Of a stretch of DNA of 52,452 nucleotides, positions 18,058-50,580 are shown piece after piece. Source of the stretch: an uncultured Lachnospiraceae bacterium. Its GTDB lineage: Bacteria; Bacillota; Clostridia; Lachnospirales; Lachnospiraceae. Made by a program: the position numbers and the translations under genes. The DNA is taken from assembly GCA_947565305.1 (NCBI GenBank), contig CANOFO010000008.1, positions 1-52,452 on the forward strand, in the 5' to 3' direction. Each line of letters begins with the position of its first letter. Position 1 is the stretch's first letter. The notes below the pieces were generated by a model. The model was not told the DNA's origin. It ran no database searches and was given only the letters and a program-made list of their open reading frames with translations.

Positions 18058-19794
18058 ATGGCTGAATATTTATCACCAGGCGTATATGTAGAGGAATTTG
18101 ATTCAGGCGGAAAGCCCATGGAAGGCGTTGGTACAAGTACAGCCGGATTTATCGGTCTTGCACAGAGAGGACCAACGGAAGGGGTTCCGCAGCTTGTCAC
18201 CAACTTTGCAGATTTTAAGAGAAAATTTGGCGGGTATCTTTCGGAAAATGAATATGGGGAATACCGGTTTTTGGCGTATGCGGTAGAACACTTTTTTGTG
18301 AACGGTGGTTCCCGCTGTTTTATTTCCCGTGTAGCGCCAAGCGATGCCAGGCCTGCCCGTGCCAGGGTTCCGGCACAGGATTCGGTTCTTAAGGTGCAGG
18401 CGAAAAATCCTGGCTTGTGGGGCAACAGCATGAGTATTGTCGTGACGCCCGCAAGCAAGGCGAAGACCCAGATTTTGGAAGAACTTGAGACAGCGGATGG
18501 GAAACAGTATTCCGTAAAGAGTTCTGTAGGCTTCCATGAAGGGGATGTAGTTGTATACAAGGACATGACGAATGTGGTATACAACCGTGTAGTAAAGAGC
18601 CAGGACAATATCATTGTATTTGAAAAAGAATTTGAACAGGATGTGGTGGATAAGAATCTGCTGCCCAAGAAGGTGATTTCCACCTGTGAGTTCAACCTGG
18701 AAGTGAAGTATGACGACATTGTGGAGTTCTATGAGAATCTGTCCTTTAATGTGTCCATACCGAATTACATTGACAAAAAGACGGCGAAATCTGATTTGAT
18801 TGTTGCCGAGTACATCGGCAGTAAGAAATCTGAGGTAATGGCGCCGTTTGATGAGATTGCCGGAGCAGATCCGGAGAAGGCATTCTGCGTGGTTGCCTTA
18901 AAGGGCGGCAGCAATGGTTCTGTAGCCAACATCAGTGCAGCGGACTTTATCGGCGTGGACAAGGGTGCGGGGAAACGTACCGGTATCCAGGCATTTTTGG
19001 ACAATGACAATGTTTCCATTATGGCAGTTCCCGGGGTGGTAGACCCCAACGTACAGCTGATGCTGGTTGCACATTGTGAAAATCTTGCCAGCCGCTTTGC
19101 CGTGCTGGATATGCCCAGGGATGCCAAGAAAATTGATGACATTATGGCCCACAGGGATATCGTTGACAGCAATTATGCAGCTATGTACCATCCGTGGCTG
19201 GAAGTATTTGACCCATTGGATAAGAAAAACCTGGCGATTCCTCCTTCTGGCTCTGTCATCGGCATTTATGCCCGCAGCGATACCTCAAGAGGCGTACATA
19301 AGGCGCCCGCTAATGAGACGGTACGTGCATGTGTAGGGCTGGACTGCCAGTTTAATAAGGGTGAGCAGGATATCTTAAACCCCAAGGGCGTGAACTTAAT
19401 CCGTTCTTTCCCAGGACAGGGCATCCGTGTCTGGGGTGCGCGCACAGCGAGCAGCGACCCAAGCTGGAAATACGTCAATGTACGCCGCTTATTCATCTTT
19501 ATTGAAGAGAGCATCAAGGCGAACACCAACTGGGCAGTGTTTGAGCCGAACGATGAGGTTTTGTGGGTGCGTGTAAAACGTACGATAGACGTATTCCTGA
19601 CAGGACTTTGGAGGTCAGGTGCACTTGCCGGCTCCGCGCCGTCTGAAGCGTTTTTTGTTAACTGCGGCAGGAATACCATGAGCCAGGATGATATTGATAA
19701 CGGAAGGCTTGTCTGCGTCATCGGCATTGCGCCGGTGAAACCTGCTGAATTTGTAATCTTCAGGATTTCGCAGAAAACAGGTGATTCTGTATAA
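18058..19794 (+). CDS. CIS contractile sheath protein
   Basis: Sheath protein of 578 residues of the phage-tail-sheath family, forming the contractile outer layer. The N-terminus has the family pattern AEYLSPGVYVEEFDSG, and GTSTAGFIGLAQRGP follows. The C-terminal 100 residues (VNVRRLFIFIEESIK, then NCGRNTMSQDDIDNGRL) are the conserved sheath core that joins neighbouring subunits by handshake strands. It is the first gene of the CIS operon. Only one sheath gene is present, unlike Afp/PVC, which have three. It is followed after 64 bases by the first tube gene. Confidence 0.97.
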   Translation: MAEYLSPGVYVEEFDSGGKPMEGVGTSTAGFIGLAQRGPTEGVPQLVTNFADFKRKFGGYLSENEYGEYRFLAYAVEHFFVNGGSRCFISRVAPSDARPARARVPAQDSVLKVQAKNPGLWGNSMSIVVTPASKAKTQILEELETADGKQYSVKSSVGFHEGDVVVYKDMTNVVYNRVVKSQDNIIVFEKEFEQDVVDKNLLPKKVISTCEFNLEVKYDDIVEFYENLSFNVSIPNYIDKKTAKSDLIVAEYIGSKKSEVMAPFDEIAGADPEKAFCVVALKGGSNGSVANISAADFIGVDKGAGKRTGIQAFLDNDNVSIMAVPGVVDPNVQLMLVAHCENLASRFAVLDMPRDAKKIDDIMAHRDIVDSNYAAMYHPWLEVFDPLDKKNLAIPPSGSVIGIYARSDTSRGVHKAPANETVRACVGLDCQFNKGEQDILNPKGVNLIRSFPGQGIRVWGARTASSDPSWKYVNVRRLFIFIEESIKANTNWAVFEPNDEVLWVRVKRTIDVFLTGLWRSGALAGSAPSEAFFVNCGRNTMSQDDIDNGRLVCVIGIAPVKPAEFVIFRISQKTGDSV

Positions 19795-19858
19795 GCGTTA
19801 CTGTTAACAAAATCATTTCTTCTAAAAATAATTAGTCAGAAAGGAGCGTTGTGAAGAG

Positions 19859-20284
19859 ATGGCAAGTACTCCATATGGAAAATTTAGATATAAGGTAGAA
19901 ATTGACGGCTTAGAGGCAGGCGGCTTCTCAGAGGCGTCCGGATTTGACGCCTCGATTGATGTGATTGAGTACCGCGAGGGCGACATGGTACAGACACCGC
20001 TGAAACTCCCCGGACTGAAAAAGTATGGCAACATCACATTGAAACAGGGTGTTGCAGATTCTATGGTAATGTATGAGTGGATGATTGCGGGCGTGGAAGG
20101 TGAAGTGGAGCGCAAGACAATCACGATTACCATTCTGGATGAGACGGAAACAGCTACGGCATCCTGGCAGGTAATCAATGCATGGCCGGCGAAATATACG
20201 GCGCCGGACTTCAATGCGACATCATCAGAGGTTGCAATTGAGAGCATTGAGATTGCCCACGAGGGGATGACCAGGGTATCTTAA
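19859..20284 (+). CDS. CIS inner tube protein 1 (gp19/Hcp-like)
   Basis: Tube protein of 141 residues of the T4 gp19-like family. The start PYGKFRYKVEIDGLEAGGF, the SEASGFD segment and the KYGNITLKQGV motif are typical. Hexamers of this protein stack inside the sheath to form the rigid tube that is driven into the target. An AAAGGAG site precedes the ATG. It is probably the major tube component, since it directly follows the sheath gene and is followed by a strong intercistronic hairpin. Confidence 0.95.
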   Translation: MASTPYGKFRYKVEIDGLEAGGFSEASGFDASIDVIEYREGDMVQTPLKLPGLKKYGNITLKQGVADSMVMYEWMIAGVEGEVERKTITITILDETETATASWQVINAWPAKYTAPDFNATSSEVAIESIEIAHEGMTRVS

Positions 20285-20299
20285 AGACAGTTAAATTTA

Positions 20300-20326
20300 T
20301 GCCCCGGGCATTGGTTGCCCGGGGCA
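20300..20326 (+). promoter_or_regulatory. Strong intercistronic hairpin after tube gene 1
   Basis: A perfect 11-bp stem, mostly GC (20300-20310 with 20316-20326), has a TTGGT loop. No T-run follows (AGATAGG), so it is not a standard terminator. It lies between the abundant sheath/tube genes and the rest of the operon and probably protects or attenuates the mRNA there, giving more sheath and tube than baseplate. Confidence 0.6.
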
Positions 20327-20351: not shown

Positions 20352-20720
20352 ATGTTTGAAACAGAATTTTCTTTTGTCCTCCCCAAAGGTTACATGGACA
20401 GGGATGGCAATTTGCACAAAGAGGGGAAGATGCGCCTGGCCACAGCGGCAGACGAGATTATTCCGCTGCGTGACCCCAGGGTGCAGCAGAATCCGGGATA
20501 CCTCGTGGTTATCTTGCTCTCAAGGGTAATTACCAGCCTGGGGACGATGCCTGCGGTGGACACCAAGGTGATAGAAGGCCTGTATACGCCGGATTTGGCA
20601 TATCTGCAGGATTTATATGAAAGGGTCAACCAGGCGGAAATTCCCGTATACCGCACGGTCTGCCCACATTGCGGGGAAGAGATAGAAGTGCCCGTAAATT
20701 TTATGGAAGCCGGGCTATAA
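20352..20720 (+). CDS. CIS tail assembly chaperone-like protein with zinc ribbon
   Basis: Small protein of 122 residues of the type usually found between the two tube genes in non-phage CIS loci and named phage tail assembly protein. The pattern is a beta-rich N-terminus (FETEFSFVLPKGYMDRDG), the conserved RLATAADEIIPLRDPRV, then helical LLSRVITSLG and DLAYLQDLYERVN. A CPHC motif near residue 107, inside a short C-terminal segment, suggests half of a zinc knuckle. It probably chaperones tube or baseplate hub assembly. The start is ATG at 20352, with a GCAGGGTGG site. Confidence 0.8.
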   Translation: MFETEFSFVLPKGYMDRDGNLHKEGKMRLATAADEIIPLRDPRVQQNPGYLVVILLSRVITSLGTMPAVDTKVIEGLYTPDLAYLQDLYERVNQAEIPVYRTVCPHCGEEIEVPVNFMEAGL

Positions 20721-20959: not shown

Positions 20960-21400
20960 ATGGCAATGCAGGACAATCTTGCAAAACGCACAAAGTTTAA
21001 AGTGATACTGGACGGAAGACCTTTGGGTTTTTCCAAGGTGTCCAATATATCGTCCACGATGGAATTTGAAACTGTTGTGGAGGGCGGGGTCAATGACAGG
21101 GTCCATTATCTGCCCAAACCGCGGCAGTCGCTGGATAAGCTGGTCTTGGAATATGGAATTGCCAGCGGGGAACTGACACGGACCACTCTGACAGCGGGGT
21201 ATGAACTCAAAAAAGGCATCATCATCATGGTCATGCCGGAGTCAGGCCTCGTGCCCACTGCCACTTATCAGGCAAATTGGGGGATAGTCACTAAATGGGA
21301 AATTGACACCCTGGATGCGACGAGCAGCGGCGTGCTGATTAAGAAAGTAGAAATCTCCCATAATGGGCTGGCGGAAACAATTAATAAAATTGGCATATAA
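20960..21400 (+). CDS. CIS inner tube protein 2 (tube initiator candidate)
   Basis: Second gp19-like tube protein, 146 residues. It begins with AKRTKFKVILDGRPLGFSKV and ends with a SSGVLIKKVEISHNGL strand. It differs clearly from tube protein 1 and lies next to the baseplate genes, as Afp5/PVC5 do. The likely role is the first tube ring that joins the spike and baseplate to the main tube. An AGAGGTGAG site precedes the ATG. Confidence 0.92.
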   Translation: MAMQDNLAKRTKFKVILDGRPLGFSKVSNISSTMEFETVVEGGVNDRVHYLPKPRQSLDKLVLEYGIASGELTRTTLTAGYELKKGIIIMVMPESGLVPTATYQANWGIVTKWEIDTLDATSSGVLIKKVEISHNGLAETINKIGI

Positions 21401-21434: not shown

Positions 21435-24400
21435 ATGTTAAGGTTAAGAGAGGCTTTTTCACAAAAAATACATTTTCATATCAGACAGGATATGCTGCAG
21501 CGGCTGTGGGACAAGTATGTTCCGTCAGATTCCGCAGAGTATGGGGATATCCAGCTTATTTACCTGGGGCAGGAGGCAGCACAGCCAGAGGAACAGTCCC
21601 AGAAGATACAGCTGCTGATTAGCCTTGTGCTCAGAAACAGGATTATGCGCATGGGACTGGATAAAGCGCCCATTAAGACTGCGCTTGTCCGGGAACAGAT
21701 GAAAAGCAGTTCGCAGCGCATGGAGAAATATTATCTGATGCAGCTGAAATGCTGTGATTTTGTGATGTATCGAAAAGTATGCAGGTATGTGGGGCTGATT
21801 GACCAGGCAGAAGCGGAAGACAGGCGGTACAGGAACTGGCAGAAAGAAAGCCAAGCGATTGAAAAACAGCGGGAGGAGTACCGGCTGTTCTCCTTGTTTT
21901 CTTCGGAGATGAAAGAATTTCTAAAGGAACGTTCGTATGAGGCGATGCGTGCCGTAGAAAGGGATATTTTGTATGTTTTGTCAGAAAAAGAATATCATAA
22001 GCTGGCCGAACGCCTTATCTGGCAGGAGCGGGAAACATTTCTTTCCTGTCTGGAAAAGTGTGATAAAGTGCAATACAATAAAATATTAAAACGACTGGAA
22101 AAAAGCAGTAAGGAGTTAAGCATAAAGCTGTTTCAAAGCTGGGTGAAAGGTCAGGGAATGGAAGCTGTCAGGGCGCTGGATTCCCATGAGTATATGTTGT
22201 TTTACCAGCGGGCGGTAAGCGTGATAAACGAGGAGGCTGCAGACAGGCAGCTGGTGGTATGGAAGAAAAATAAAGAGAAAATGCTCCGCTATGTCAAGCG
22301 GCAGGAGCCAGAGAAGATTCTTTATCTTCTGCGGCAGATGGAACAATTTGCGGAGGAAACAAGCAGCGTTTCAGTTGAAAATATGGCGCAGTTTACCGCT
22401 GTTTTTAATGAGAAGTTCACACAGCTTGAGGAACAGTATTTTCAGCAAGTAATCAAGGAGTTGCGCGAACAGGCGGCCTCTGTTTTGAACGACAGAACGT
22501 ATCAGGCGATTGCCCAGCGGGCGCAGCATTTCCTGTGGGAAGAGACAGCTGAGAAGCCTGTGGGCGAAAACAGGTTGCCGGCAGGGGAGGAAAGGCACAG
22601 AGGAGAAAGCAGGTTCCTGACGGTTGGCGTCAGCCGGATTGCAGAACGCATAGAGCAGGAACTGACGCTGAAGCAGGAGCGGTTAAAAGAGCGGCAGGCG
22701 CAGATTTTTGTGACATACCAGAATGCATACCGTGAGGTATTGGGGACAATTAACCGTGCACTGCAGGAGCAATATGACGTATTGCAGTTTAACAAAGAAA
22801 TATTTTCGGCTCAGTATAAAGGCAAGCTTGTGAAAGAGATATTCCAAAGCCAGCACAGAGGGGAATTTAGCGAAGAGGAAATAGAGAGAATCTGTGAGCT
22901 TGGCAGGGTGTTTGCGGAACCGATTGCCACAGAAGAGGGGCAGGAGATAACCGGCGAAAGGTTTACATTGTCATGGCATACGGATGAGCGGGAGGTCCAG
23001 GGGATACAACAGGCGATTGCTGATATCCGTGAACAGAAGGAGGAAAAGCAGTCAGAATTTATCGGGAATTTGGCAGAGGCAATGTTTATCTGGGAGCAGG
23101 TACATGTATCAGCCCGGCAGATTTCCCGGATGGTGGAAGAATTGTCAGGAAAGGTTTCCTTTTCGCAGAATGCCCAAGGCAGGGTGGAAGAGGGGCAGAT
23201 ACAGCTAATAGGGGAGAAGATAACGGAATTTTCTTTGCTGCAGCGGACAGAAGAAAATCAGGCAGCAGAGCAGATACAGCTGATAGGGGAGAAAATTATG
23301 GAATTTTCTTTGCTGCAGCGGACAGAAGAAAACCAGGCAGCAGAGCAGATACAGCTGATAGGGAGAAAAATAACAGAATCTTTTTTGCAGGGCACAGAAG
23401 GGGAACGAGAAAAAGGGCAGATACAGATTCCAGGGAAAAAATTACAAAAAATCATATCACAGCGTATCAAAGGGGAGCAGGGAAACACGTATATACAGAT
23501 TACAGAGGAAAAGATAAAAGATTTTTATTTAAAGAAAATAGAAGAAAAACAGAAAGAGACAATTAGAAAGAGTGGAGAGCAGAGATTAGAAAGAATATTT
23601 ACAAAGATTCCAGAGAAAGTGGTAGAGGAGATATTCCAAAGCCAGCACAGAGGGGAATTTAGCGAAGAGGAAATAGAGAGAATCTGTGAGCTTGGCAGGG
23701 TGTTTGCGGAACCGATTGCCATAGAAGAGGGTCAGGGAATAACAGGTGAAAGGCTTGCATTACCGCGTCATACGGATAAGCATGAAACGCAGAAGGTACA
23801 ACAGGCGATTTCTTATCTCCAGGAACTGGAGGAGGAAAAGCAGTCAGAATTTATCGGGAATTTGGCAGAGGCGATGTTTATCTGGGAGCAGGTACATGTA
23901 TCAGCCCAGCAGATTTCCCGGATGGTGGAAGAATTGTCAGGACAGGCGCCTTTTGCACAGGATGTATGGGGCAGAGTGGAAGAGAGACAGATACAGCTGA
24001 TAGGGAGAAAAATAACGGAATCTTTTTTGCATGGCATAGAAGGGGAACAAGGAAAAGGGCAGATACAGATTCCGGAGAAAAAAATACAACAAATCATATC
24101 GCGGCATATTGAAGGGGAGCAGGGAGAAACATATATACAGATAACAGAGAAAAAAATAAGAGAATTCTATTTAAAGAATATAGAAGAAAATCACAAAGAA
24201 ATAATTAGAAAGAGTGAAGAGCAGAGATTAGGATTAACATTTACGCAGGTTCTGGAAAAAGTGGTAGAGGAGATATTCCAAAGCCAGCACAGAGGGGAAT
24301 TTGGCGAAGAGGAAATAGAGAGAATCTGTGAGCTTGGCAGGGTGTTTGCGGAACCGATTGCCATAGAAGAGGGTCAGGGAATAACAGGTGAAAGGCTTGC

Positions 24401-25988
24401 ATTACCGCGTCATACGGATAAGCATGAAACGCAGAAGGTACAACAGGCGATTTCTTATCTCCAGGAACTGGAGGAGGAAAAGCAGTCAGAATTTATCGGG
24501 AATTTGGCAGAGGCAGTGTTTATCTGGGAGCAGGCACATGTATCGGCTCAGCAGATTTCCCAGACGGTGGAAGAACTGTCAGGACAGGTTTCTTTTTCGC
24601 AGAGTGCCCAAGGCAGGGTGGAAGAGGGACAGATACTGCAGATGGGGAGCAAAATAAAGGAAATTCTTTTGCAGAAGATAGATAAGGCAAAAACCGTACA
24701 TGTTCCATATAGCAAATTGTGGGAGTGGGGCAGGGCGTTGCTGTTCTATCAGAAGTTGCCGGTTTCAGGAAATGTGCGGCTGGAGGAAATGCATGATTTG
24801 GTCAATGAGCAGCAGGAAAGGGGCAGCGATACAGACAATCCGCAGCAGGAGGATGTGCAGACAGATATCATACGTCGTCAGATAGAGGCAGCAAAAGACA
24901 AAAACAGCTTAAGGCAGTTGATTGTACAGATTAACCATCAGGCGTCTTCCCGACAGAAAACACAAGAAAACATCCTGGTATATGCGGATAGCCAGCTTCA
25001 TGCACAGCCGGTACAAGATTTGATCCGCTATCTGCGGGAATTAGACGAGAGGCAATATGGGGAATTTGTCAGGCAAATGTCCCAAGTTATGGAAATTCAG
25101 CGGCAGCTGCATACTGCACTGGAGAAAATAAAAGGCGATGCAAAAAATCCATGGGAAGGAGCGCAAATCCACTATCTGCAGCCGCAGGGAAATGCAGAAA
25201 AAATGCAGGAGGAAGCGGAGAACCGTTATCTGCAGCCGCAGGGAAGTGCAGAAAAAATGCAGGAGGAAGCGGAGAACCGTTATCTGCAGCCGCAGGGAAG
25301 TGCAGAAAAAATACAGGGGAAAGCGGAAATCCGCTATCTGCAGCCGCAGGGAAGTGCGGCAAATCCACAGACAGAGACTGGCCGTATTGCCGTTTGGCAG
25401 AAACAGGACAGCCAGCGTTTGGCGGCAGCATATCCAGAGCTTGCAGTGCGTATTCGGGAATTTGAGAGGCAGAGGCGTCAGCTTACGCAAAAGCGTATGC
25501 AGGCTGCCAGACAGGAATTTTTCCATCAGCCGCATCAACAAAATCCTGCACCTCAGGCAGCAGATACAGGAGAGCCAGATTTATGGCAGACGATGTTATC
25601 CATAAATGAGCCGGAATTGTTAGGAGCAGCATTGCCACTAAATGATAGAAATTCGCCGGATTTCAGGGTGGTCCTAGAAGGCGGCAAGGATGTCCTGGCT
25701 GCCCGGGAAAAAGAAATCCGGGCATGGGAGCTGCAATACTCCATGCAGAATGCATATGTTTCGGATGAGGAACAGCAGAAGGACAAAATGCGCATGCACG
25801 AGGAGACCATACAGATGAAGTCTGCGCAGGAGCAGCTTGGCAAGAAGCTGCAGGAAGTGGAAACACAGCTAAAGAAAGTGGAGACAGCGGCAAAAGCCAA
25901 AGAAGATGTGCGGGCGTTTGCTGACCAGGTAAAACAGCAGCTTTATGAGGAACTCCATGTGGAAAAGCTGCGCAGGGGGCTGATTTAG
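21435..25988 (+). CDS. Giant repeat-rich helical CIS protein, candidate tape measure or scaffold
   Basis: Not assigned to a family. The 1517 residues are strongly helical and rich in Gln, Glu, Arg and Lys, with no signal peptide or membrane helix. The N-terminal 450 residues are a non-repetitive helical region. A block starting EIFQSQHRGEF recurs near residues 468, 732 and 946. Between the first two, a 25-residue unit with the core QIQLIGEKI is repeated. Residues 1245-1316 are four 18-residue copies around YLQPQG. The C-terminal 150 residues form a charged coiled coil. It lies between tube 2 and the LysM baseplate gene. Afp-type tape-measure proteins are also long and helical but lie near the ATPase gene. 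The ribosome site is weak (TAGGG). Confidence 0.75.
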   Translation: MLRLREAFSQKIHFHIRQDMLQRLWDKYVPSDSAEYGDIQLIYLGQEAAQPEEQSQKIQLLISLVLRNRIMRMGLDKAPIKTALVREQMKSSSQRMEKYYLMQLKCCDFVMYRKVCRYVGLIDQAEAEDRRYRNWQKESQAIEKQREEYRLFSLFSSEMKEFLKERSYEAMRAVERDILYVLSEKEYHKLAERLIWQERETFLSCLEKCDKVQYNKILKRLEKSSKELSIKLFQSWVKGQGMEAVRALDSHEYMLFYQRAVSVINEEAADRQLVVWKKNKEKMLRYVKRQEPEKILYLLRQMEQFAEETSSVSVENMAQFTAVFNEKFTQLEEQYFQQVIKELREQAASVLNDRTYQAIAQRAQHFLWEETAEKPVGENRLPAGEERHRGESRFLTVGVSRIAERIEQELTLKQERLKERQAQIFVTYQNAYREVLGTINRALQEQYDVLQFNKEIFSAQYKGKLVKEIFQSQHRGEFSEEEIERICELGRVFAEPIATEEGQEITGERFTLSWHTDEREVQGIQQAIADIREQKEEKQSEFIGNLAEAMFIWEQVHVSARQISRMVEELSGKVSFSQNAQGRVEEGQIQLIGEKITEFSLLQRTEENQAAEQIQLIGEKIMEFSLLQRTEENQAAEQIQLIGRKITESFLQGTEGEREKGQIQIPGKKLQKIISQRIKGEQGNTYIQITEEKIKDFYLKKIEEKQKETIRKSGEQRLERIFTKIPEKVVEEIFQSQHRGEFSEEEIERICELGRVFAEPIAIEEGQGITGERLALPRHTDKHETQKVQQAISYLQELEEEKQSEFIGNLAEAMFIWEQVHVSAQQISRMVEELSGQAPFAQDVWGRVEERQIQLIGRKITESFLHGIEGEQGKGQIQIPEKKIQQIISRHIEGEQGETYIQITEKKIREFYLKNIEENHKEIIRKSEEQRLGLTFTQVLEKVVEEIFQSQHRGEFGEEEIERICELGRVFAEPIAIEEGQGITGERLALPRHTDKHETQKVQQAISYLQELEEEKQSEFIGNLAEAVFIWEQAHVSAQQISQTVEELSGQVSFSQSAQGRVEEGQILQMGSKIKEILLQKIDKAKTVHVPYSKLWEWGRALLFYQKLPVSGNVRLEEMHDLVNEQQERGSDTDNPQQEDVQTDIIRRQIEAAKDKNSLRQLIVQINHQASSRQKTQENILVYADSQLHAQPVQDLIRYLRELDERQYGEFVRQMSQVMEIQRQLHTALEKIKGDAKNPWEGAQIHYLQPQGNAEKMQEEAENRYLQPQGSAEKMQEEAENRYLQPQGSAEKIQGKAEIRYLQPQGSAANPQTETGRIAVWQKQDSQRLAAAYPELAVRIREFERQRRQLTQKRMQAARQEFFHQPHQQNPAPQAADTGEPDLWQTMLSINEPELLGAALPLNDRNSPDFRVVLEGGKDVLAAREKEIRAWELQYSMQNAYVSDEEQQKDKMRMHEETIQMKSAQEQLGKKLQEVETQLKKVETAAKAKEDVRAFADQVKQQLYEELHVEKLRRGLI
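22836..24560 (+). repeat. Three long diverged-spacing direct repeats inside the giant helical protein gene
   Basis: Near-identical DNA blocks begin at 22836, 23628 and 24270 (steps of 792 and 642 bases). Each starts with GAGATATTCCAAAGCCAGCA and continues nearly unchanged for about 90 bases, with longer similar stretches downstream. All steps are multiples of three, so recombination between them would change protein length without breaking the frame. Confidence 0.85.
23196..23370 (+). repeat. 75-bp tandem repeats in the giant helical protein gene
   Basis: The segment starting CAGATACAGCT occurs at 23196, 23271 and 23346 with an exact 75-base step, encoding a 25-residue unit. The first two copies are almost identical over their full length and the third diverges after about 30 bases. 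Confidence 0.85.
25167..25382 (+). repeat. Four 54-bp tandem repeats in the giant helical protein gene
   Basis: Units run 25167-25220, 25221-25274, 25275-25328 and 25329-25382, each coding 18 residues with the core RYLQPQGSAEK. Copies 2 and 3 are almost identical, and copies 1 and 4 have drifted. The step keeps the reading frame. Confidence 0.9.
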
Positions 25989-26054: not shown

Positions 26055-26726
26055 GTGGGGCTTACGAAAGCGAAACTGGAAATTGAAAAAGAAGTAGGAA
26101 AAAGCGTGATAGACGTGCTGTTCAATCCTTCGGAATACCAGCTGACGGATGGCGCCAATTACTCAGAGAAGAAAGTGCCGGGGCTGGATGGACCGATTAT
26201 CCAGTATGTCTCCGGGGAGGCTACAGAATTATCCCTCAGTCTTTTTCTGGATACATACGTGCCCAAAAAACCAAAGTCGCTGTTTTCTTTCGGCGGCGGA
26301 AATTCGGATAGTTCCACGGATGTCTCCGATATTACCAAGAAAATTGCTGATGCGACCTCCATAGACGGAAGCCTGCACCGCCCGCCTAAAGTTACATTTA
26401 AGTGGGGGTCGCTGAAATTTGAAGGCGTTGTGACGAAATTTAACCATACTTACACAATGTTCACGGAGAGTGGGATGCCGGTCCGTGCCAAGGTAAGCCT
26501 GACGTTTAAATCCCTGATATCACCAGATGATACCAGGAGGAAATCGCCTTTTGAATCCCCGGACCGTACCAAATACCGTACCATCCGCCAAGGGGTAGGG
26601 CTTTGGGATATTGCCAATATGGAATATGGAGATCCGGATATGTGGAAAGTGATTGCCCGGGCAAACGGAATTATGAATCCTTTGGACGTAAAGCCGGGGC
26701 AGGTGGTAAAGCTTCCGGCAATATAA
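26055..26726 (+). CDS. LysM-domain CIS baseplate protein (Afp7-like)
   Basis: Protein of 223 residues. The N-terminal region starts with KAKLEIEKEVGKSVIDVLFNP, typical of the CIS/phage protein that links the tube to the spike (gp53-like). The C-terminal 55 residues are a LysM domain (RTIRQGVGLWDIANMEYGD, then LDVKPGQVVKLP). LysM domains bind peptidoglycan-type glycans, but in CIS baseplates they are mainly structural. The start is GTG at 26055 with a GAGGGA site. It is followed 24 bases later by the spike hub gene. Confidence 0.92.
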   Translation: MGLTKAKLEIEKEVGKSVIDVLFNPSEYQLTDGANYSEKKVPGLDGPIIQYVSGEATELSLSLFLDTYVPKKPKSLFSFGGGNSDSSTDVSDITKKIADATSIDGSLHRPPKVTFKWGSLKFEGVVTKFNHTYTMFTESGMPVRAKVSLTFKSLISPDDTRRKSPFESPDRTKYRTIRQGVGLWDIANMEYGDPDMWKVIARANGIMNPLDVKPGQVVKLPAI

Positions 26727-41522: not shown

Positions 41523-41523
41523 T

Positions 41524-42270: not shown

Positions 42271-42654
42271 ATGGGATTATGTGTGACAGGCGGGGCATCC
42301 ATGACTTGTACCTTTGGCATGGCGCCCTCGGTGTTAAATGTGCTGCCAACGGCAAAAACCATGTCAGCAATGCCTTTGGCAACCATTGCAGATAATGTGC
42401 CCTTTGTGAATATTACGCCTTTCGGAATGTGCCAGAGCATGGCGAATCCTACGGTGGCTGCTGCGACAGCCGCAGCTATGGGAGTTTTGACCCCTATGCC
42501 CTGCACGCCGGTTCCGGCAGGTCCTTGGGCGCCAGGTGTCCCACAGGTGTTAGTCGGAGGCAAGCCGGCAGTCAATAACCAGTGTAAGCTTACCTGCGCC
42601 TATGGTGGGATGATACAGTTCACAAATTCAGGCTGCCAGACCGTGCAGTTATAG
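42271..42654 (+). CDS. PAAR-like spike tip protein, DUF4280
   Basis: Protein of 127 residues of the DUF4280 PAAR-like family that sharpens the spike tip (role of Afp10). It starts with GLCVTGGASMTCTFGMAPS and ends with a repeating beta pattern (KPAVNNQCKLTCAYGGMIQF, core NNQCKLTCAYGG). The conserved Cys residues fit metal binding at the tip. GGAGGAG precedes the ATG. Located far from the spike genes, it groups with the terminator and membrane genes. Confidence 0.93.
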   Translation: MGLCVTGGASMTCTFGMAPSVLNVLPTAKTMSAMPLATIADNVPFVNITPFGMCQSMANPTVAAATAAAMGVLTPMPCTPVPAGPWAPGVPQVLVGGKPAVNNQCKLTCAYGGMIQFTNSGCQTVQL

Positions 42655-42719
42655 AAATATAGGTTGTCATAGGTGCAGCTTTAAAGCATAGACAGAGTTT
42701 GAATCTGAGGAAAACAAAT

Positions 42720-45458
42720 ATGGAAAAGAAAAAAAATTTTGGCGGTATGGGCAAGAAAGGTTTGGTTGGTTTATGCATTATCCTGTCTGTTTCATTTATC
42801 GCTATCATCATAGCCACTGTGTATGGCAGCACTGTGAGACTGAATTATATTGAACAGATACATCTTCAGGATGGCTATCTCTATTACGTGGACCGTGGGG
42901 AAGGCGATGATTTAAAAATTATCCGTTCAGATCCGGATGGGAGCAATGGGAATATGATTGTCTGCAAACGCCATGTCAAGGAGCAGTACCGGACGGTACG
43001 GCAAATCTTTTTTGACGGTGACGGCGCGGCCTATGTGCTGGTAGCGGAGACAGATGTGGAGTCCTGGAATGACGTAAACTGTAAAGTATATGAATGCGAT
43101 TTCGCGTCCGGAAAACTGATAGAGACGGAGTATGACCTGACGGAAGACGTCTTAACATCCAGCTTGGTTGAGATTGCACGCATACAGGATGACAAGCTTT
43201 ATTATATCCGTATGCCCGAGGTGGAAAAAGGTTCGGCAAAGGCAGAACTGATGGCGCTCGATTTACAGGGAGAGCGGCAGGTTTTAGAAAAGGTAAAACT
43301 GAAATATCCGTATTTAAACACCCAGTTTTTCCTCAGTGATGAACACATCCTATTATGGATGGATTATGCGGGGGAAGTTTATGCCAAGGAAGTGGGGGCA
43401 AAACACCGTCTGCAAATTGAGGGCATAACTGGGAAGCCAGGTGTGTTCAAAAGCCTGTCCGATGATGGGAAACACGCATATGTCCTGGACTATAAAGAAG
43501 AATGTATCCGTATAATTGATTTGGCAGAAAAGACTTCCAGACCATTGTTTGCAGCAGAAAATATCAGGAAAAGCGATGCGGATTTTACGTTCCAGACGCT
43601 TCAAAGTCCCGACTGCACACAGTCCGGTTTCTGCGCGGGTGTGGAGGACGAAGAGGGGACGGTTTCTGTCTGCACTTACCTGGATGGTAAGCATCGGGAT
43701 ATCGGTAAGGTCTCGTTAACTGCTTTCACAGTCTTGCGCCGGATGTATGTGATTTATATTGCTATCCTGGAATTGTTAGGCATTTTGTGTGTCTATTGGG
43801 TGCTGCGCGTCAAGTACCATTTCCAGACAATTTTAGTTCGGCTTGGCGTTATTTTCCTGATGGGGCTTATAGTTATGGACGGTTTCCTGGAAGGCTGGAT
43901 TGATTTGTCCATGCGTCAGCAATTGGAGTGCAACCAGACGTTTGCGCTAACGGCGCTGGGGAAGATTCTCAAGGAGGATATCGCGCGCAATATTGAGACG
44001 GATGCCGAAGAATTTCCATCCGGGAAAAGGGCGCTTAAAATCAGCTGCGCAAATATCAATGAAGGAGAGAGCATTGGCGGGCTTTCTATGTATGTCTACA
44101 GCGTTTTTGCAGCGGATGAGGATGGACATTTATATGTCAGTGAGTCTATGTCGGAATACTGCGGCGTTCCCGTGGAATGGGTGTATACACAGGAAACTAC
44201 AGAGGCAATTTATCAGGCGTATGAAGCATCGGAAGTTGTGGATAAGAGCGATGAGGGCAGGGATGGAAAGCGCAATAACCAGTTTGTGCCGATTGTCTTA
44301 AATGACGGCACGAAATATGGGGTGCTTGCCGTTTCAGCGGATGGAAATGTATTAGATTATCAGATTTGGTATTATCAGTGGAATCTGAAAAATGCATCCT
44401 CTACGCTGCTTTCTATCCTTACGGTGATATTGTTGGTAATCCTCTATATATTCCTAAAACCGTTAAAGGCATTGAAACGGTGTGCGGGTACGCTGGCAGA
44501 AGGCAATCTTGGCGTGACGGTCGCCGTGCATGGGCATGATGAGGTGGCGGATATCTCAGCGGCATTTAACCAGATGTCTCTGGAGATTGCCAACTATGTG
44601 CAGGATATCAAGAATATGTCAGATGGGTATTATAAATTCATTCCGGCAAAAATTATTGATTTGTTGGGCAAAGACTCCATTCAGGACGTGGAGTTGGGCG
44701 ATGAGATGCAAGGGGAATTTACCATCCTTTCCCTGCACGCATTGGATTATCCGAAGCAAAGCGCCTCTTTTTCGGCTGAGCAGGCATATAAGGATATCAA
44801 CCGTGTGCTGTCCATGCTTGTGGAACCGATTAACAGCCATCACGGCGTGGTAGAGCATTTTGAAGATACCGGGCTGTCTGCATTTTTTGCGGTCAGCAGC
44901 AGAGAGGCATTGGATGCAGCTGTCGACATCCAGCGTTTGCTGGAAGAGCAGATGCCGGGCAACGGCAGGACAATTGCTATCAGCTATGGGCGTGTGATGA
45001 TAGGCGTGATTGGGCATGAACAGCGCATGGAAGCCACGACAATTTCTGCCCATTCAGACCTGGCAAAAGAACTGCGCTTAAAGGGTGATAGATATGGAGC
45101 GCACATCCTCATCACGCATCTGGTCTATGAGCAGATAGCAGATTTTGAGGAGCATTACCATGCCAGGTATCTGGGCAATATTTATCTTTCCGCGAACAAT
45201 GCCTATGAGCGCGTCTATGACGTATACGATGGGGATGCGGAGGAGGAATTTTATTATAAGGATCTGACGAAGCCCTTGTTTGAGAGGGGCGTGAACTTAT
45301 TTGTAGCGAAGAAGTTTTACGAGGCGCGCCTGGTTTTTGTGGAGGTCTTGAAACAGCACCGCAAGGATAAGGCGGCAAAGGAATATCTGTACCGCTGTGA
45401 CAAATATTATAAGCTTGCGGATACGGAGGAGATAGAGACGGTGATAGAGAAGTTCTGA
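42720..45458 (+). CDS. Four-helix membrane sensor with HAMP and degenerate class III cyclase domain
   Basis: Protein of 912 residues. Membrane helices lie near residues 12-34, 343-362, 371-391 and 560-582. The first outside part (about 40-335) looks like a beta-propeller; the second (about 392-558) like a periplasmic-type sensor. HAMP (about 583-635) is followed by a class III cyclase fold (about 660-830), shown by RVMIGVIGHEQRMEATTIS, which lines up with the family GxVVxGxIGxxxRxxYTVIG run. The metal aspartates, the lysine and the Asn/Arg pair are replaced (SLHALDYP, FEDTGLSAFF, HSDLAKEL), so activity is unlikely. A helical TPR-like tail ends the protein. ATG at 42720 has TGAGGA upstream. 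It is probably a signal receiver for the CIS. Confidence 0.75.
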   Translation: MEKKKNFGGMGKKGLVGLCIILSVSFIAIIIATVYGSTVRLNYIEQIHLQDGYLYYVDRGEGDDLKIIRSDPDGSNGNMIVCKRHVKEQYRTVRQIFFDGDGAAYVLVAETDVESWNDVNCKVYECDFASGKLIETEYDLTEDVLTSSLVEIARIQDDKLYYIRMPEVEKGSAKAELMALDLQGERQVLEKVKLKYPYLNTQFFLSDEHILLWMDYAGEVYAKEVGAKHRLQIEGITGKPGVFKSLSDDGKHAYVLDYKEECIRIIDLAEKTSRPLFAAENIRKSDADFTFQTLQSPDCTQSGFCAGVEDEEGTVSVCTYLDGKHRDIGKVSLTAFTVLRRMYVIYIAILELLGILCVYWVLRVKYHFQTILVRLGVIFLMGLIVMDGFLEGWIDLSMRQQLECNQTFALTALGKILKEDIARNIETDAEEFPSGKRALKISCANINEGESIGGLSMYVYSVFAADEDGHLYVSESMSEYCGVPVEWVYTQETTEAIYQAYEASEVVDKSDEGRDGKRNNQFVPIVLNDGTKYGVLAVSADGNVLDYQIWYYQWNLKNASSTLLSILTVILLVILYIFLKPLKALKRCAGTLAEGNLGVTVAVHGHDEVADISAAFNQMSLEIANYVQDIKNMSDGYYKFIPAKIIDLLGKDSIQDVELGDEMQGEFTILSLHALDYPKQSASFSAEQAYKDINRVLSMLVEPINSHHGVVEHFEDTGLSAFFAVSSREALDAAVDIQRLLEEQMPGNGRTIAISYGRVMIGVIGHEQRMEATTISAHSDLAKELRLKGDRYGAHILITHLVYEQIADFEEHYHARYLGNIYLSANNAYERVYDVYDGDAEEEFYYKDLTKPLFERGVNLFVAKKFYEARLVFVEVLKQHRKDKAAKEYLYRCDKYYKLADTEEIETVIEKF

Positions 45459-45484
45459 AAACGTTGGAAAGAGAGGTGTGGGAG

Positions 45485-47752
45485 ATGGAAGAAGAATTAT
45501 TGAAAGAAGTTGATGTGAATGGAAATGTTGGGAAGAACGATAGCGTACAGCAGATGGGGGGGAATCTCCAGCCACAGAAGCCGATAGACGGCAAGGTAAA
45601 CGAGGGAGGCATTGCGGGAGTCAATGAGTCCAGTACAGCCACGAAAGCCGTGGAGGGTGGAAGCGCTGCGGAAGTCAAAGAGTCCGGGTCAGCCGCCAAA
45701 ACCGTGGAAGAGGGAAACGCTGGGGGAGGGAATGAAGCAGGGGCAGAAACGAAAGCCGAGGGAGAGGGAAAAACTGGGGAAGTCAAAGAATCCGGGTCGG
45801 CCACGAAAGCCGTGGAGGGTGGAAGCACTGCGGGAGGAAATGAATCCGGGTCGGCCACGAAAGCCGTGGAGGGTGGAAAAACTGAGGAAGTCAAAGAATC
45901 CGGGACAGGTGACAAAACTGAGGATGAGGGAAAGACTGAGGAAGTCAAAGGATCAGAGGCAGCCACGAAAGCCGGGGGAGAGGGAAAAACTGAGGGAGGA
46001 AATGAAGGAGGGACAGTCGCCCCAACCGAGGGAGAGGGAAAAAATAAGGAAAGCAATGCTCAGAAAGAGGTACTGGCTAACGATAAAGTCAAAATGAATT
46101 CGGCTTTGACATTGGCTTCAGTTACAGATAAGAATCATCTTGGGGGGGGCGATAACCAAAAGGAGGCTGGCGATGCCTTTGATAAGCTGGAGGATCTGGT
46201 AGCGAAGAAAAAAAGAAGCGGGAGGAGCAGAAGGGCAAAGCAGGAAAATAAGGAAGGACAGGAACAAAACGAAGAGGGACAAGATAACGCTGAAAAAAAC
46301 GAAGAGGGGAAAGATAATGATGAGCAGGCGGATACGCCGCAAGCTGTTAAGAAGAACATTGATGCTCTTCGGGGAGGGCAGCTTTATATGGCAGTCGTGC
46401 TGGCGCGGCAACTGGAAAGAGGCGGACAAAACCCCATGGCAGATAATAAATTTAAGGGTTTCTTCAATTCTTCCGGCTTTAATTCCGCAGCAGATAAGAT
46501 GAAATTAGTGGGGGGGATAAATGCTACTGCGGGTATGCTGGATGCTACATTTAAAGGTTCCGTTGTCAGCCAGGCGGTAGGGCTTGCCCACAACCTGTTA
46601 GGGTTTGTGACGACCATAAAGTCTTTAGTAGAGAAAATAAAGGGGTTCAAGGCGGCAGACAACAAGCTGGATAAAGTTATGGGTGTGATTGGCATTCTCT
46701 CAGATTTTGCCATGGCGGTGTCAAAGGCAGCTGCCATTGTGCAGTCAATTGCCACTTTTGCGGGGCAATTCAAAGATACATTAAAAAATGTTGTGGGATA
46801 TATATCCACAATCTCCAATTCCATTGCACAGATTGGTGGACTCATAACGGGCGTCAGTGGGCTGAAAAAATCTGTGGCTAAACGAAAAAATATGGAAGCT
46901 TTGCGGGATAAGATGTGGAAAGAGGTAGAGCTGATTAAGCCAAATGTTAATCCAAAGCCAGGCGATGCTGACAATTACTGGGACAATGATGTGGACGGCT
47001 GGGAATCGGAGAAGGAGGAGAAAGAGAGGGAGGAGACGAAGAAACAGGAGGAGACGAAGAAACAGGAGGAGAAACAGGAGGAGAAACAGGAGGAGAAGAA
47101 ACAGGAGGAGAAAGGGAAGAAAAAGCATCGCAGCCTCAAACAGGTGAGGGAAGATGCAAAGCAGCGCAAAGCAACGCTGAAAGAGAGGCGGGCTCAGGCA
47201 AACATGCTGCTTAAGCGGGAGGATGTTTCGGATGAGGATAAAGACAAGATTGTCCGTTACCTTGCTGCGTGCAGGATGGTTGAAAATATAAAGTCAGGTA
47301 TTATCATGGGGGCTTCCGGTCTGGTGGCAAATGCCATTGGATTGGGCTCAAGCATTGCTACCGGAATATCTTATTCTGGCAATGAAAAAGCAAAGACTGC
47401 AGGTACACATCTGGGTATAATTGGCGGTTTTGCAGGAATAGAGGTATCTGCGGCAAAGCTGGGAATTGACAAGAAAAATCAAAAGAAGCAGAACAGTGAA
47501 GAGACGGATATGATAAAGGGAAGGCTCTGGGGGTATATCCATGGACTGGATGATGATAAATATGGATTAAAAGGAATCTCTGAATCATTGGAGGCGGATC
47601 CATCGCCGGAGAAAGCAGCAGAGGCAAAAGGAGTAGCTGCCAAGTACAAAGCTGTCGATGACCAGCTTAAGGGTGCATTTGTAAATTATGGAGCAGTTTT
47701 TAAAGCCAAGAATGCAGAAGAGTTTCGCAAGCTGCTGGTGGCTGGGATATAG
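45485..47752 (+). CDS. Low-complexity and hydrophobic-helix protein, candidate CIS cargo or tape measure
   Basis: Not recognised. The 755 residues fall into parts: about 1-190 acidic low complexity with repeats like SATKAVEGG; about 190-290 charged; about 290-460 with small-residue-rich helices (LSDFAMAVSKAAAIVQSIATF near 405, core AVSKAAAIVQSIATF, and ISNSIAQIGGLITGVSGL near 440); about 515-550 a Lys/Gln/Glu stretch (KKQEE units); and about 600-630 another helix set (GLVANAIGLGSSIATGIS). The rest is helical. There is no signal peptide. Tape-measure proteins and pore-forming toxins both show such helices. It lies just before the ATPase gene, where Afp14, the tape measure, lies. ATG at 45485 with GAGAGG is preferred over TTG at 45464. 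Confidence 0.7.
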   Translation: MEEELLKEVDVNGNVGKNDSVQQMGGNLQPQKPIDGKVNEGGIAGVNESSTATKAVEGGSAAEVKESGSAAKTVEEGNAGGGNEAGAETKAEGEGKTGEVKESGSATKAVEGGSTAGGNESGSATKAVEGGKTEEVKESGTGDKTEDEGKTEEVKGSEAATKAGGEGKTEGGNEGGTVAPTEGEGKNKESNAQKEVLANDKVKMNSALTLASVTDKNHLGGGDNQKEAGDAFDKLEDLVAKKKRSGRSRRAKQENKEGQEQNEEGQDNAEKNEEGKDNDEQADTPQAVKKNIDALRGGQLYMAVVLARQLERGGQNPMADNKFKGFFNSSGFNSAADKMKLVGGINATAGMLDATFKGSVVSQAVGLAHNLLGFVTTIKSLVEKIKGFKAADNKLDKVMGVIGILSDFAMAVSKAAAIVQSIATFAGQFKDTLKNVVGYISTISNSIAQIGGLITGVSGLKKSVAKRKNMEALRDKMWKEVELIKPNVNPKPGDADNYWDNDVDGWESEKEEKEREETKKQEETKKQEEKQEEKQEEKKQEEKGKKKHRSLKQVREDAKQRKATLKERRAQANMLLKREDVSDEDKDKIVRYLAACRMVENIKSGIIMGASGLVANAIGLGSSIATGISYSGNEKAKTAGTHLGIIGGFAGIEVSAAKLGIDKKNQKKQNSEETDMIKGRLWGYIHGLDDDKYGLKGISESLEADPSPEKAAEAKGVAAKYKAVDDQLKGAFVNYGAVFKAKNAEEFRKLLVAGI
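45618..46060 (+). repeat. Imperfect repeats coding the low-complexity N-terminus
   Basis: Related units of about 54 bases recur. An almost exact pair starts at 45791 and 45845 (TCCGGGTCGGCCACGAAAGC), and more diverged copies lie on both sides. The step keeps the reading frame. Confidence 0.75.
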
Positions 47753-47768: not shown

Positions 47769-49961
47769 ATGTTTGCGGGGCAGGAAGAATATTTCCAGGA
47801 GCTGCTGGTCCTGGTAAGAAAAGAAATCAGCCTTTATACGAAGTATGCGGTGCTCCTTACGGAGAAAGGGACGGTCCGCCATATTTACCAGACCAAATTA
47901 TTTAAGGACGAACTTGCCAACATTTTGCAGGATCCCTTTGCGCATATGGAGCGCACTGTTTATGACAGGGAGCGGAAAGAACTTTTTGCGCAGTGGCGCA
48001 TGTTCCATGAGAAAGCTTACCGCACTATCAAAGAAGGCAATGTAATGCTTCCTTTTGCTTATCTGCTGCGCAGGCTGGGGCTGGATGAGTTTGAGCAGTA
48101 CCTTGCCTGTCTTGCCATAGCGCCGGAACTGAACCGGGAGTTTGAGCGCATGTATGCCTATCTCCAGGACGACCTTGCCTGGAGGTATCCATCCCTGGAT
48201 CTGTGCGTCAAAATGTACGTGATGGATGAGAACATACAGAATATGCTGATCCACCGCGTATTTGCCCGCAAGGAGGTTCTCTGCTGTGTGTTTGGCGCAA
48301 GGGCTATGACACAGGAGAGCGAAAGGTCCTGGCAGTTTAAGCTGAGGAATGATTTGATAGATTTTGTGTTTTTCTATGAAGCAGATTTGCTGGACAGGAA
48401 AGCAGATTATCATGTCGTTCTCCCTGCCGCATCTGTGGAGGAAGGAAACAACATCAACCGCCAGGTGTCGGAACAAATTGTAAAACGCATGCAGGATAGG
48501 GCAGACGTCAAGGAGGATGGGCAGGAAATGCGGCTGTTCCTGCTGCGGGGTCCATATGGCAGCGGGAAAAAGCTGCAGATAATCAGGGCGGCTAATAGCC
48601 TGGGCCATGCAGTTTTGTTTGTGGATTTGCGGGCGTTAGGGTGCCAGAAAGAAGAGCAGATGGCAGAAGCGGTCTGCGATGCGGTGGTGCGCGCCGTCTT
48701 AGACCAGGCGTTTCTGGTGTTTGAACATTGGGAAACTGTCTGGACGAAAGAGCAGAAGAGCCGTCAGACGGCGCTGGGATTTTTGCGTAAGGCGTCCTTG
48801 TTCTTCGGTCATGTATTCCTTACTGCAGAGGAAGCGCAGGGTGAGGATATTTTTGGCGGAAAATACCCGCAAGGGTATGAAAGTGAAGAATTCCATCTGC
48901 GTTTTCCCTCCATCCAGGAACGGAGCATGTTGTGGAAATCGTTTCTGGCAGCGGGGGAGGTGTGCCTGAAAGAGGAAGAGGTCTGTGACAAATTGGCAGC
49001 ACAGTTTGATTTTTCGCCGGGCGTGATAAAGGAGGCTGCTGAGATTGCTTGTCGGGATGCACAGGTGCAGGGGCAGAAAGAAGTTCCTGCCTCCTTTTTA
49101 TACCGCGCCTGTCAGCAGAAAATTTCCCATCGGCTGGGGGAACGCGCCAGCCGGGTAAATGCGGCATATACCTGGGATGATTTGGTGCTTGAGGATGGAC
49201 CAAAGGAATTGCTGCGCCAGGCGTGCGGGCAGGTATCGTTCCGCGGCAAGGTCTATGAGGAATGGGGATTTGAACAGAAAGTTGCCTATGGCAGGGGCGT
49301 TTCCCTCCTGTTTGCAGGACCTCCGGGAACCGGCAAGACCATGGCGGCGCAGGTAATTGCCCGGGAACTGAATCTGGAATTGTATAAGGTCGACCTTTCC
49401 GGCGTCCTGTCGAAATACATTGGGGAGACGCAGAAAAACCTGCGGGAGATATTTGACGAGGTGAAAAAGAGCAGGAGCATCCTCTTTTTTGATGAGGCGG
49501 ACGTGCTTTTCGGAAAGCGCGTGGACGTCTCAGATGCCAGGGACATCAGCGCCAATGCGCAGACGGCGTACCTCCTGCAGAAAATGGAGGAATACGACGG
49601 CATTACCATCCTTGCCACCAATCTGATGCAGAATTTTGACGATGCCTATAAACGGCGCATGAAATTCATCATCCGCTTTTCCTTTCCCCAGGAGGAACAG
49701 CGCAGGCAGCTTTGGCAGAAAGTGTTTCCCCGGCAGATGCCGCTGGATGGGGATATCGACATGGATTATCTTGCGGGCAATTTTGAACTTTCTGGGGCAA
49801 GCATCAAGAACATTGCCGTGAACGCGGCGTTCATCGCTGCTTCCCGCAGAGAAATTACTGGCATGAAGCATATCATGGAGGCGCTGCAGCAGGAATATGA
49901 GAAATCTGGAAAAATACTTGGAAAAGCGGAACTGAAAGAGTATTATATTTATAAGATATGA
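47769..49961 (+). CDS. AAA+ ATPase of the contractile injection system (Afp15-like), copy 2
   Basis: ATPase of 730 residues. The C-terminal AAA+ domain has Walker A GPPGTGKTM near residue 516, Walker B ILFFDEADVLF near 572, sensor 1 ILATNLMQN and an Arg-finger-like YKRRM. An upstream degenerate P-loop, GPYGSGKK near residue 260, marks a second, worn AAA domain; the N-terminal 200 residues are helical. It is a paralogue of the minus-strand ATPase at 13155. Position near the operon end, after the tape-measure-like gene, matches Afp15. AGGATGGTGGAGAG precedes the ATG. Confidence 0.92.
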   Translation: MFAGQEEYFQELLVLVRKEISLYTKYAVLLTEKGTVRHIYQTKLFKDELANILQDPFAHMERTVYDRERKELFAQWRMFHEKAYRTIKEGNVMLPFAYLLRRLGLDEFEQYLACLAIAPELNREFERMYAYLQDDLAWRYPSLDLCVKMYVMDENIQNMLIHRVFARKEVLCCVFGARAMTQESERSWQFKLRNDLIDFVFFYEADLLDRKADYHVVLPAASVEEGNNINRQVSEQIVKRMQDRADVKEDGQEMRLFLLRGPYGSGKKLQIIRAANSLGHAVLFVDLRALGCQKEEQMAEAVCDAVVRAVLDQAFLVFEHWETVWTKEQKSRQTALGFLRKASLFFGHVFLTAEEAQGEDIFGGKYPQGYESEEFHLRFPSIQERSMLWKSFLAAGEVCLKEEEVCDKLAAQFDFSPGVIKEAAEIACRDAQVQGQKEVPASFLYRACQQKISHRLGERASRVNAAYTWDDLVLEDGPKELLRQACGQVSFRGKVYEEWGFEQKVAYGRGVSLLFAGPPGTGKTMAAQVIARELNLELYKVDLSGVLSKYIGETQKNLREIFDEVKKSRSILFFDEADVLFGKRVDVSDARDISANAQTAYLLQKMEEYDGITILATNLMQNFDDAYKRRMKFIIRFSFPQEEQRRQLWQKVFPRQMPLDGDIDMDYLAGNFELSGASIKNIAVNAAFIAASRREITGMKHIMEALQQEYEKSGKILGKAELKEYYIYKI

Positions 49962-50034
49962 CGTAACTATTTATGGGAATAGTTTTGAGATGACGATAAC
50001 CGCAGTGCCATAGGCATGCAGAATGGAGGAAATC

Positions 50035-50580
50035 ATGAATAAAGAAGAGTTGCGGGAAGGCTTAAAAAGGCTGGAGGCATATGTCAGCGAGCAGGGAATT
50101 AAGAACATGTTTCTGGAGGAAGGGAAACAGGCGGCGATGGACACGCTGCTGCTGGGCTTGGAGATGGAGGAGGATTTAAGCATAGACATCAGCTGCAATT
50201 TTGTCTATGCACCGGAGTTTGGCAATGTCCTGCAGTATTATGGACAGCTGGAACTGACTTCCATCATGGAAGAAAATCCTCAGGCGTTCACAGAACTGAA
50301 TATTTATCAGATGATTAATCTGCTCAACAGGGAGATTCCCATTGGGCAATTCCTCTATATGCAGGAAGAGGAGGAGAAAGAGCAGGTGCGCCACCTTATT
50401 GGTATCCGCTATACGATGCTGACCGATTTGGACAATGAGGCGGAATTGGCAAAATGCTTCAGCATTGTGGACATGCTGATGAATATTTATGAAGTGCTCT
50501 GCAGTACCCTTTTGCTGTTGATGGAAGGGGAATCTTTGAGCAATGCCATGGATATCATGGCAGGCTTAATGGAAGAGTAG
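50035..50580 (+). CDS. Small acidic protein at the end of the CIS operon, chaperone-like candidate
   Basis: Protein of 181 residues, acidic, alpha/beta in pattern, with no catalytic motif. The central part (FVYAPEFGNVLQYYGQLEL and ELNIYQMINLLNREIPIGQF, cores NVLQYYGQLEL and MINLLNREIPIGQF) followed by a strand IGIRYTML and a long C-terminal helix recalls YbjN or type III secretion chaperone folds, but this is pattern reading only. ATG at 50035 is chosen because GGAGGA lies four bases ahead; ATG at 50023 is in frame too. As the last CIS gene, next to the ATPase and cargo candidate, it may load or hold cargo. Confidence 0.6.
   Translation: MNKEELREGLKRLEAYVSEQGIKNMFLEEGKQAAMDTLLLGLEMEEDLSIDISCNFVYAPEFGNVLQYYGQLELTSIMEENPQAFTELNIYQMINLLNREIPIGQFLYMQEEEEKEQVRHLIGIRYTMLTDLDNEAELAKCFSIVDMLMNIYEVLCSTLLLLMEGESLSNAMDIMAGLMEE

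Follow-up and report, generated by a model that had tools for sequence, protein, structure and literature searches.

A gene cluster for a contractile injection system (CIS) occupies positions 18,058 to 50,580 of contig CANOFO010000008.1 from an uncultured Lachnospiraceae bacterium; the whole stretch of 52,452 nt analyzed here is termed the window. Three genes for membrane proteins, at 37032, 37992 and 42699, lie inserted in the cluster, as the original prediction had proposed, and they are not passengers there. The content of the cluster, i.e., a dead kinase, a repeat protein that is probably exposed on the outer side of the membrane and a dead signaling receptor, suggests a machine that is docked to the membrane and fired from it on a signal. 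We consider it probable (roughly 0.6) that an intracellular CIS is coupled to the cytoplasmic membrane by a dedicated three-protein module, which would relay a change of shape for firing. The module and the adjoining Cis13-family gene are as follows.

35308..37035, + strand: Cis13-family protein, devoid of a membrane helix and proposed as the docking arm (NCBIfam NF053767, residues 9-151)
37032..37916, + strand: membrane-anchored pseudokinase (PK), with a kinase fold predicted to lie inside, one membrane helix and an IG tail predicted to lie outside
37992..40910, + strand: membrane-anchored MORN-repeat protein, repeats predicted outside (Pfam MORN, E 2e-23; topology from hydropathy and charge)
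42699..45458, + strand: receptor, with a beta-propeller predicted to lie outside, four membrane segments and HAMP, then a degenerate cyclase domain of class III and a helical C-terminal tail

Protein families were scanned with Pfam at E <=0.01 on all 35 open reading frames (ORFs) of the window, and with PHROGs and NCBIfam on 10 ORFs each. A hydropathy scan marks one segment in 37032, one in 37992 and four in 42699. One segment each is also marked in 45464, 50023 and 20352, which are not taken as membrane proteins on this basis alone. The receptor start given earlier, 42720, is indeed the first ATG; the longest frame opens at a TTG at 42699.

Linkage of the three genes to the CIS was followed in 397 genomes of the same family and in 299 genomes of the phylum. 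The sheath gene is found in 44 of the 397 family genomes, and 39 of these 44 also have Cis13 (G046, G233, G253, G344 and G361 are without it). In 37 of these 39 genomes PK adjoins Cis13 within one contig; G385, where PK is fused to MORN, is among them. The two remaining genomes represent contig breaks: the contig of G365 starts inside PK and continues with receptor and MORN genes, and that of G006 stops 133 bp past the Cis13 match. A single-sequence PK search of the 397 genomes, less sensitive than the profile applied to the sheath-bearing ones, gave 32 matches, 31 of them in genomes with a sheath. The other, G120, was considered as a PK outside any CIS and was set aside as a real kinase because its sequence carries HGD and DFG, which we take to be kinase motifs. 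The receptor is present in 34 of the 39 Cis13-bearing genomes, 33 of them at E <1e-11 and G357 at 4e-8 near its PK; G006, with its contig ending after Cis13, was counted neither way. Two of the 353 sheath-negative family genomes, G125 and G200, have a receptor at E <1e-11.

The best 80 of 495 relatives from a Cis13-profile scan were fetched and read in six-frame translation. PK is present in all 80, MORN in 77 and the receptor domain in 58. The three loci that miss MORN (L092, L114 and L124) stop soon after PK. Of the 22 loci without a receptor match, 18 are cut short where a contig ends, which leaves L122, L131, L164 and L165. L122 corresponds to the G310 contig, in which the receptor is situated outside the part fetched, apart from the CIS cluster and about 15 kb further on; the L131 receptor was marked by a looser model. 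The MORN repeat pattern gave no match in G149. Two gene orders are displayed: window-like loci have Cis13-PK-MORN-cap-u251-PAAR-receptor, and a second clade has Cis13-PK-receptor-MORN. Absence of the three membrane proteins from related CIS loci, which was named in advance as a refutation of the original prediction, is thus not observed.

In the second clade the MORN gene is followed by a gene for a secreted-looking protein with a match to the TolC family OEP (L058:10109-12271, from G180, E 1.5e-11; the match of the G085 homologue, E 0.006, is below the cut-off). Further large proteins bearing N-terminal hydrophobic segments are also found in this clade, in cells where an outer membrane is not expected. 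The TolC-like homologues amount to 12 proteins among the loci examined, including one in Herbivorax (L137).

In the phylum sample the sheath is present in 12 of 299 genomes and a clear PK in four. Three of the latter (G000, G180 and G602) have a sheath. The fourth, G479, has no sheath match, and its PK, on a 7.4-kb contig, is flanked by the end of a Cis13 gene on one side and by a MORN gene on the other; because of this position the missing sheath is taken, unproven, as a draft gap. Weak matches to the PK profile are found in 16 genomes of this sample, and the two that were looked at are PASTA kinases.

The kinase fold of 37032 is revealed by the family alignment, its structural model and profile-profile comparison only; single-sequence searches of Pfam, NCBIfam and the PDB gave nothing firm, with two PKC rows at E 1 to 1.4. 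Residue positions were set by the family alignment in 51 sequences. The catalytic Lys is kept in six of the 51, and the HRD Asp and DFG Asp in none. The tail of 37032 is conserved, and no match to PK was found in 50,697 phage records at E <=0.001. EssB/YukC of type VII secretion, a different machine, likewise has a domain inside that resembles a pseudokinase, a single membrane helix and a part outside. A relation of 37032 to EssB/YukC found no confirmation: there is no YukC Pfam match up to E 5, and YukC is absent from the structural rows listed.

The second enzyme-like domain, that of the receptor, has also lost its catalytic residues. The cyclase columns were placed by alignment with CyaB, and the four positions compared are, as we take them, two metal-binding Asp, the transition-state Asn and an Arg. 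Seventy-five distinct proteins have letters at all four (L097 was excluded as incomplete). None of the four residues is kept in 63 receptors, one in nine, two in one (Herbivorax, L137) and all four in two. The two complete sets are those of G125 (L086) and G200 (L071); none of the 73 proteins from CIS-bearing loci has all four. The counts of 63, nine and one thus indicate that the cyclase set has been lost in all 73 CIS-locus receptors. The receptor of G542, from another family, is beside a CIS and keeps one of the four. The G125 and G200 receptors have the same four-helix build and are located away from any CIS gene in the fetched pieces. They possibly represent an ancestor or an outgroup of the CIS receptor, and, with their catalytic residues, they offer a natural comparison for the relay proposed below.

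In its middle third the MORN protein has, between blocks of repeats, a long insert rich in Gly, Ser, Ala, Asn and Thr that may serve as a spacer across the wall. MORN proteins of relatives range from about 320 to >1000 amino acids (aa). In L126, L133, L134 and L169, a single polypeptide with one membrane helix comprises both the PK domain and the MORN protein. These fusions support both a PK-MORN pairing and the predicted topology. All four loci are from one isolate series (HAN), and thus the fusion may be a single event.

Important for the docking question is the absence of a membrane helix from Cis13. The match of 35308 to the CIS13-family model has an E of 8e-27, below the full-length cut-off, and the closest named relative of the gene (94%) among the best 80 of 495 is an uncultured Lachnospiraceae bacterium. 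The window protein shows no membrane helix, and hydropathy flags three of 103 homologues, drawn from overlapping sets; in two of the three the segment is at residue 46, in the conserved N-terminal part. No fibre family that would indicate a receptor-binding tail fibre of the Afp13 type, as in released systems (Afp, PVC, MAC), is among the Pfam matches of the 35 ORFs, and Cis13 occupies that place in the cluster. Given a Cis13 that retains its N-terminal family domain but has no helix, and a membrane-anchored pseudokinase encoded by the next gene, docking of Cis13 on PK would be the simplest interpretation.

The following steps may be envisaged. The baseplate would use the Cis13-family protein as an arm to dock onto the pseudokinase domain that 37032 has on the inside, and 37032 would pair with the MORN protein within the membrane and outside. 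The MORN protein would reach into, or contact, the cell wall. The propeller-HAMP-pseudocyclase receptor may sense a signal from outside or from the envelope and relay it inward by a change of shape, and not by cAMP or phosphorylation, whereby the baseplate would be released for firing.

Membrane-held or membrane-triggered CIS are already known: the type VI secretion system (T6SS), the thylakoid CIS (tCIS) of Anabaena, the T6SS subtype iv (T6SSiv) and the Streptomyces CisA type. The original prediction could match the layout to none of the systems it considered, which is too strong in view of the accounts of Anabaena (PMC8894136), T6SSiv (PMC12210884) and Streptomyces (PMC12237407). Anabaena has a CIS gene set with Cis13 and a baseplate held at the membrane, a placement that for the present cluster is proposed. 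Its Cis13 lies with the N-terminus on the baseplate, a membrane helix at its C-terminus serves as the anchor of the particle, and with the helix removed 9 of the 14 particles seen floated free (PMC8894136). However the Anabaena anchor consists of the Cis13 helix and an extension of Cis12 (PMC8894136), whereas here a helix-free Cis13 is accompanied by a separate three-protein module. A Cis13 homologue is also the proposed anchor in the T6SSiv of Amoebophilus, where eCIS-like (extracellular CIS) genes are used at the inner membrane; pseudokinase, MORN and receptor are not mentioned in the sections of its description that were consulted (PMC12210884). Streptomyces coelicolor is similar in being Gram-positive and in having a dedicated membrane protein, CisA, encoded 3′ of the baseplate genes; CisA is needed for contraction and firing and may link baseplate to membrane. 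CisA is, however, a single bitopic protein whose outside domain resembles solute-binding proteins (PMC12237407), in contrast to the pseudokinase, MORN protein and pseudocyclase receptor found here.

No match to the TssJLM membrane complex of T6SS was found by Pfam in the 35 ORFs, and no literature link between CIS and MORN repeats, a pseudokinase or a HAMP/cyclase receptor was found in a search that had preprints and most subscription journals outside its scope. How a CIS is held at the membrane, and what cue fires it, are open questions for most systems, and this clade offers a defined, conserved set of parts that addresses both. Named strains with the set are Petralouisia muris, Sporofaciens musculi, Cuneatibacter sp. 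NSJ-177 and Anaeromicropila populeti. If the proposed coupling is true, dead kinase and cyclase domains have been reused as a mechanical relay.

A more extended version of the model is offered tentatively. In this receptor-gated CIS of Gram-positive cells, an outside signal read by the propeller and the MORN part would pass through pseudocyclase and pseudokinase directly to the baseplate, the sheath would fire outward across membrane and wall, and one sub-clade would add the secreted TolC-like protein and its partners. If true, this would be a mode apart from T6SS, eCIS, tCIS and the Streptomyces type, and the TolC-like protein with its secreted partners would imply a complex spanning the envelope of cells for which no outer membrane is expected. 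That the CIS is held at, or gated by, the membrane had been suggested from the start, and it fits the anatomy; recruitment only under stress, as in a Streptomyces-type mode, fits too, the individual steps being inferred. In that mode particles float in the cytoplasm until membrane proteins recruit and fire them, killing the producer. No lysis family besides the match of the LysM protein was found (Pfam, 35 ORFs; PHROGs, 10), in keeping with such a mode. Nevertheless we regard it as rather unlikely. The three proteins have no Pfam match to a solute-binding family, the build described for the outside domain of CisA, in a search that used no CisA sequence or profile; a three-part receptor complex would exceed the needs of a recruiter. 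Moreover, Lachnospiraceae are not known to grow as multicellular hyphae.

The HAMP receptor with its signaling-type domain, and the regulator gene next door, could also belong to a signal system for expression or assembly of the CIS that never touches the particle. This is improbable, since the catalytic residues are lost in both enzyme-like domains, the three proteins have no Pfam or NCBIfam match to a DNA-binding family, and PK stays beside Cis13, and MORN or the receptor beside PK, not beside the regulator. More improbable still is an ordinary released eCIS, with the membrane proteins as immunity or cargo-related factors: MORN-like repeats do occur in YwqK-type antitoxins, and the NCBIfam search gave a match to an adhesin family (E 8e-10, far below the cut-off), but in many genera the structural genes are accompanied by this same set, and MORN is found fused to a kinase-like domain.

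Several observations weigh against the proposed membrane coupling. Docking, localisation and firing are inferred from genes, the topology of the trio is predicted by hydropathy and charge counts, and a role in regulation alone would be equally compatible with linkage of the genes. Six of the 51 PK sequences keep the Lys position, and the receptor model is weak in its cyclase half (predicted local distance difference test, pLDDT, 69.6). At least 10 of the 80 fetched loci are on contigs equal in length to contigs of the family sample and are regarded as identical with them, and thus the two sets of counts overlap. The PK gene of G380 is short, with a weak match (E 4.5e-8) and no membrane segment, and single-sequence search gave no receptor match in four of the 39 Cis13 genomes (G085, G104, G176 and G384). 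The five sheath-bearing family genomes without Cis13 are also without a clear PK; three of them (G046, G253 and G361) have a sheath without a neighboring CIS and were counted neither for nor against the module. In the phylum sample, the genome of G542 is without PK although sheath, Cis13, receptor and, on the opposite strand, MORN are all present, and eight more of the 12 sheath-bearing genomes are without a clear PK. G542, G380 and the receptor gaps indicate that no single member is indispensable everywhere. The phylum genomes that have a sheath and no clear PK, G542 among them, show in turn that the module goes with one set of clostridial CIS and does not accompany sheath-bearing systems in general.

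The remainder of the cluster bears out the full CIS gene set on a single strand with short spacers that had been predicted. All 22 genes of 18058-50580 are on the + strand, with 97.5% of the stretch coding and 21 intergenic gaps of -20 to 239 bp. Sheath, tube, hub/spike, gp25, J wedges, cap and AAA+ ATPase are clustered without phage head genes. The claim that capsid, portal, terminase and integrase genes are missing holds, with no match by Pfam in the 35 ORFs or by PHROGs in 10. That lysis genes are likewise missing holds in part: a PHROG named endolysin matches the LysM protein (E 1e-9), and no other lysis family was found. The genes at 20352, 21435, 41503, 45464 and 50023, as well as the divergent regulator and second AAA+ of 13155-17802, do not figure in the original prediction. 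The other genes of the cluster are listed below.

18058..19794, + strand: tail sheath (Pfam Phage_sheath_1 and 1C, two domains, E 1e-19 and 7e-19)
19859..20284, + strand: inner tube 1, gp19 (Pfam, E 3e-44)
20352..20720, + strand: small CxxC protein, tail-assembly-chaperone-like (PHROG 508, E 6e-7)
20960..21400, + strand: inner tube 2, gp19 (Pfam, E 1e-14)
21435..25988, + strand: 1517-aa charged repeat-containing protein, possibly a scaffold or tape measure (unmatched in Pfam and PHROGs)
26055..26726, + strand: CIS_tube / LysM hub-adaptor (Pfam CIS_tube, E 9e-35)
26751..27812, + strand: hub, gpD-like (Pfam GPD, E 4e-6, below cut-off)
27809..28588, + strand: spike, gpV-like (Pfam base_V, E 4e-22)
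28605..29018, + strand: gp25 baseplate wedge (Pfam, E 2e-23)
29033..31960, + strand: baseplate J-like 1 (Pfam Baseplate_J, E 5e-6)
31989..34112, + strand: baseplate J-like 2 (Pfam Baseplate_J, E 4e-10)
34160..35311, + strand: gpI-like (Pfam Tail_P2_I, E 0.0015, below cut-off; position kept in relatives)
40944..41522, + strand: cap / tail terminator (Pfam Pvc16_N, which we take to be the former DUF4255, E 5e-25)
41503..42258, + strand: conserved protein u251 (no family; position kept in relatives)
42271..42654, + strand: PAAR-like tip (Pfam DUF4280, E 1e-32)
45464..47752, + strand: 762-aa low-complexity protein with a hydrophobic Gly-rich stretch, candidate cargo (no confident family)
47769..49961, + strand: AAA+ ATPase, Pvc15-like (Pfam AAA, E 5e-31, and WHD)
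50023..50580, + strand: 185-aa protein (no Pfam, NCBIfam or PHROG family)

The name LysM for the 26055..26726 protein is supported by PHROG matches to its C-terminal part. ORFs between tube 2 and the LysM gene in relatives encode from ~170 to 1600 aa, with none seen in G385; the protein of 21435-25988 could set tube length or be a scaffold. The candidate cargo gene at 45464-47752 adjoins the AAA+ gene and has homologues in close relatives.

The source draft genome, of 3.07 Mb, has one sheath match. Phage sheaths are distant: all 2482 matching phage records are <60% identical, and the eight listed among them are 26-34% identical. Sheath genes 54-70% identical to that of the window, with no other recognized CIS genes nearby, are found in G253:C163, G361:C15 (L045-L049) and G046:C1 (L080-L081). 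The lone sheath of G253 is accompanied by a tube gene, and the sheath surroundings of G253 and G361 look alike, with a sugar-polymer-like cluster not far away. A tandem pair of sheath genes is present in another family of the phylum (G493:C2 and G581:C2).

Genes flanking the cluster on its 5′ side are on the opposite strand.

15076..17802, - strand: divergent BTAD-type regulator, likely of the cluster (Pfam BTAD; homologues beside several related loci)
13155..15065, - strand: second AAA+ ATPase (Pfam)
12290..13228, - strand: 312-aa protein 3′ of the second AAA+ (no family; homologues in G056 and G309)

Further out, window positions 2726-9427 have likely defence genes, i.e., AAA_21 and RloB, then the ABC-3C parts CTD1 and MComp1 and an SMC-like ATPase.
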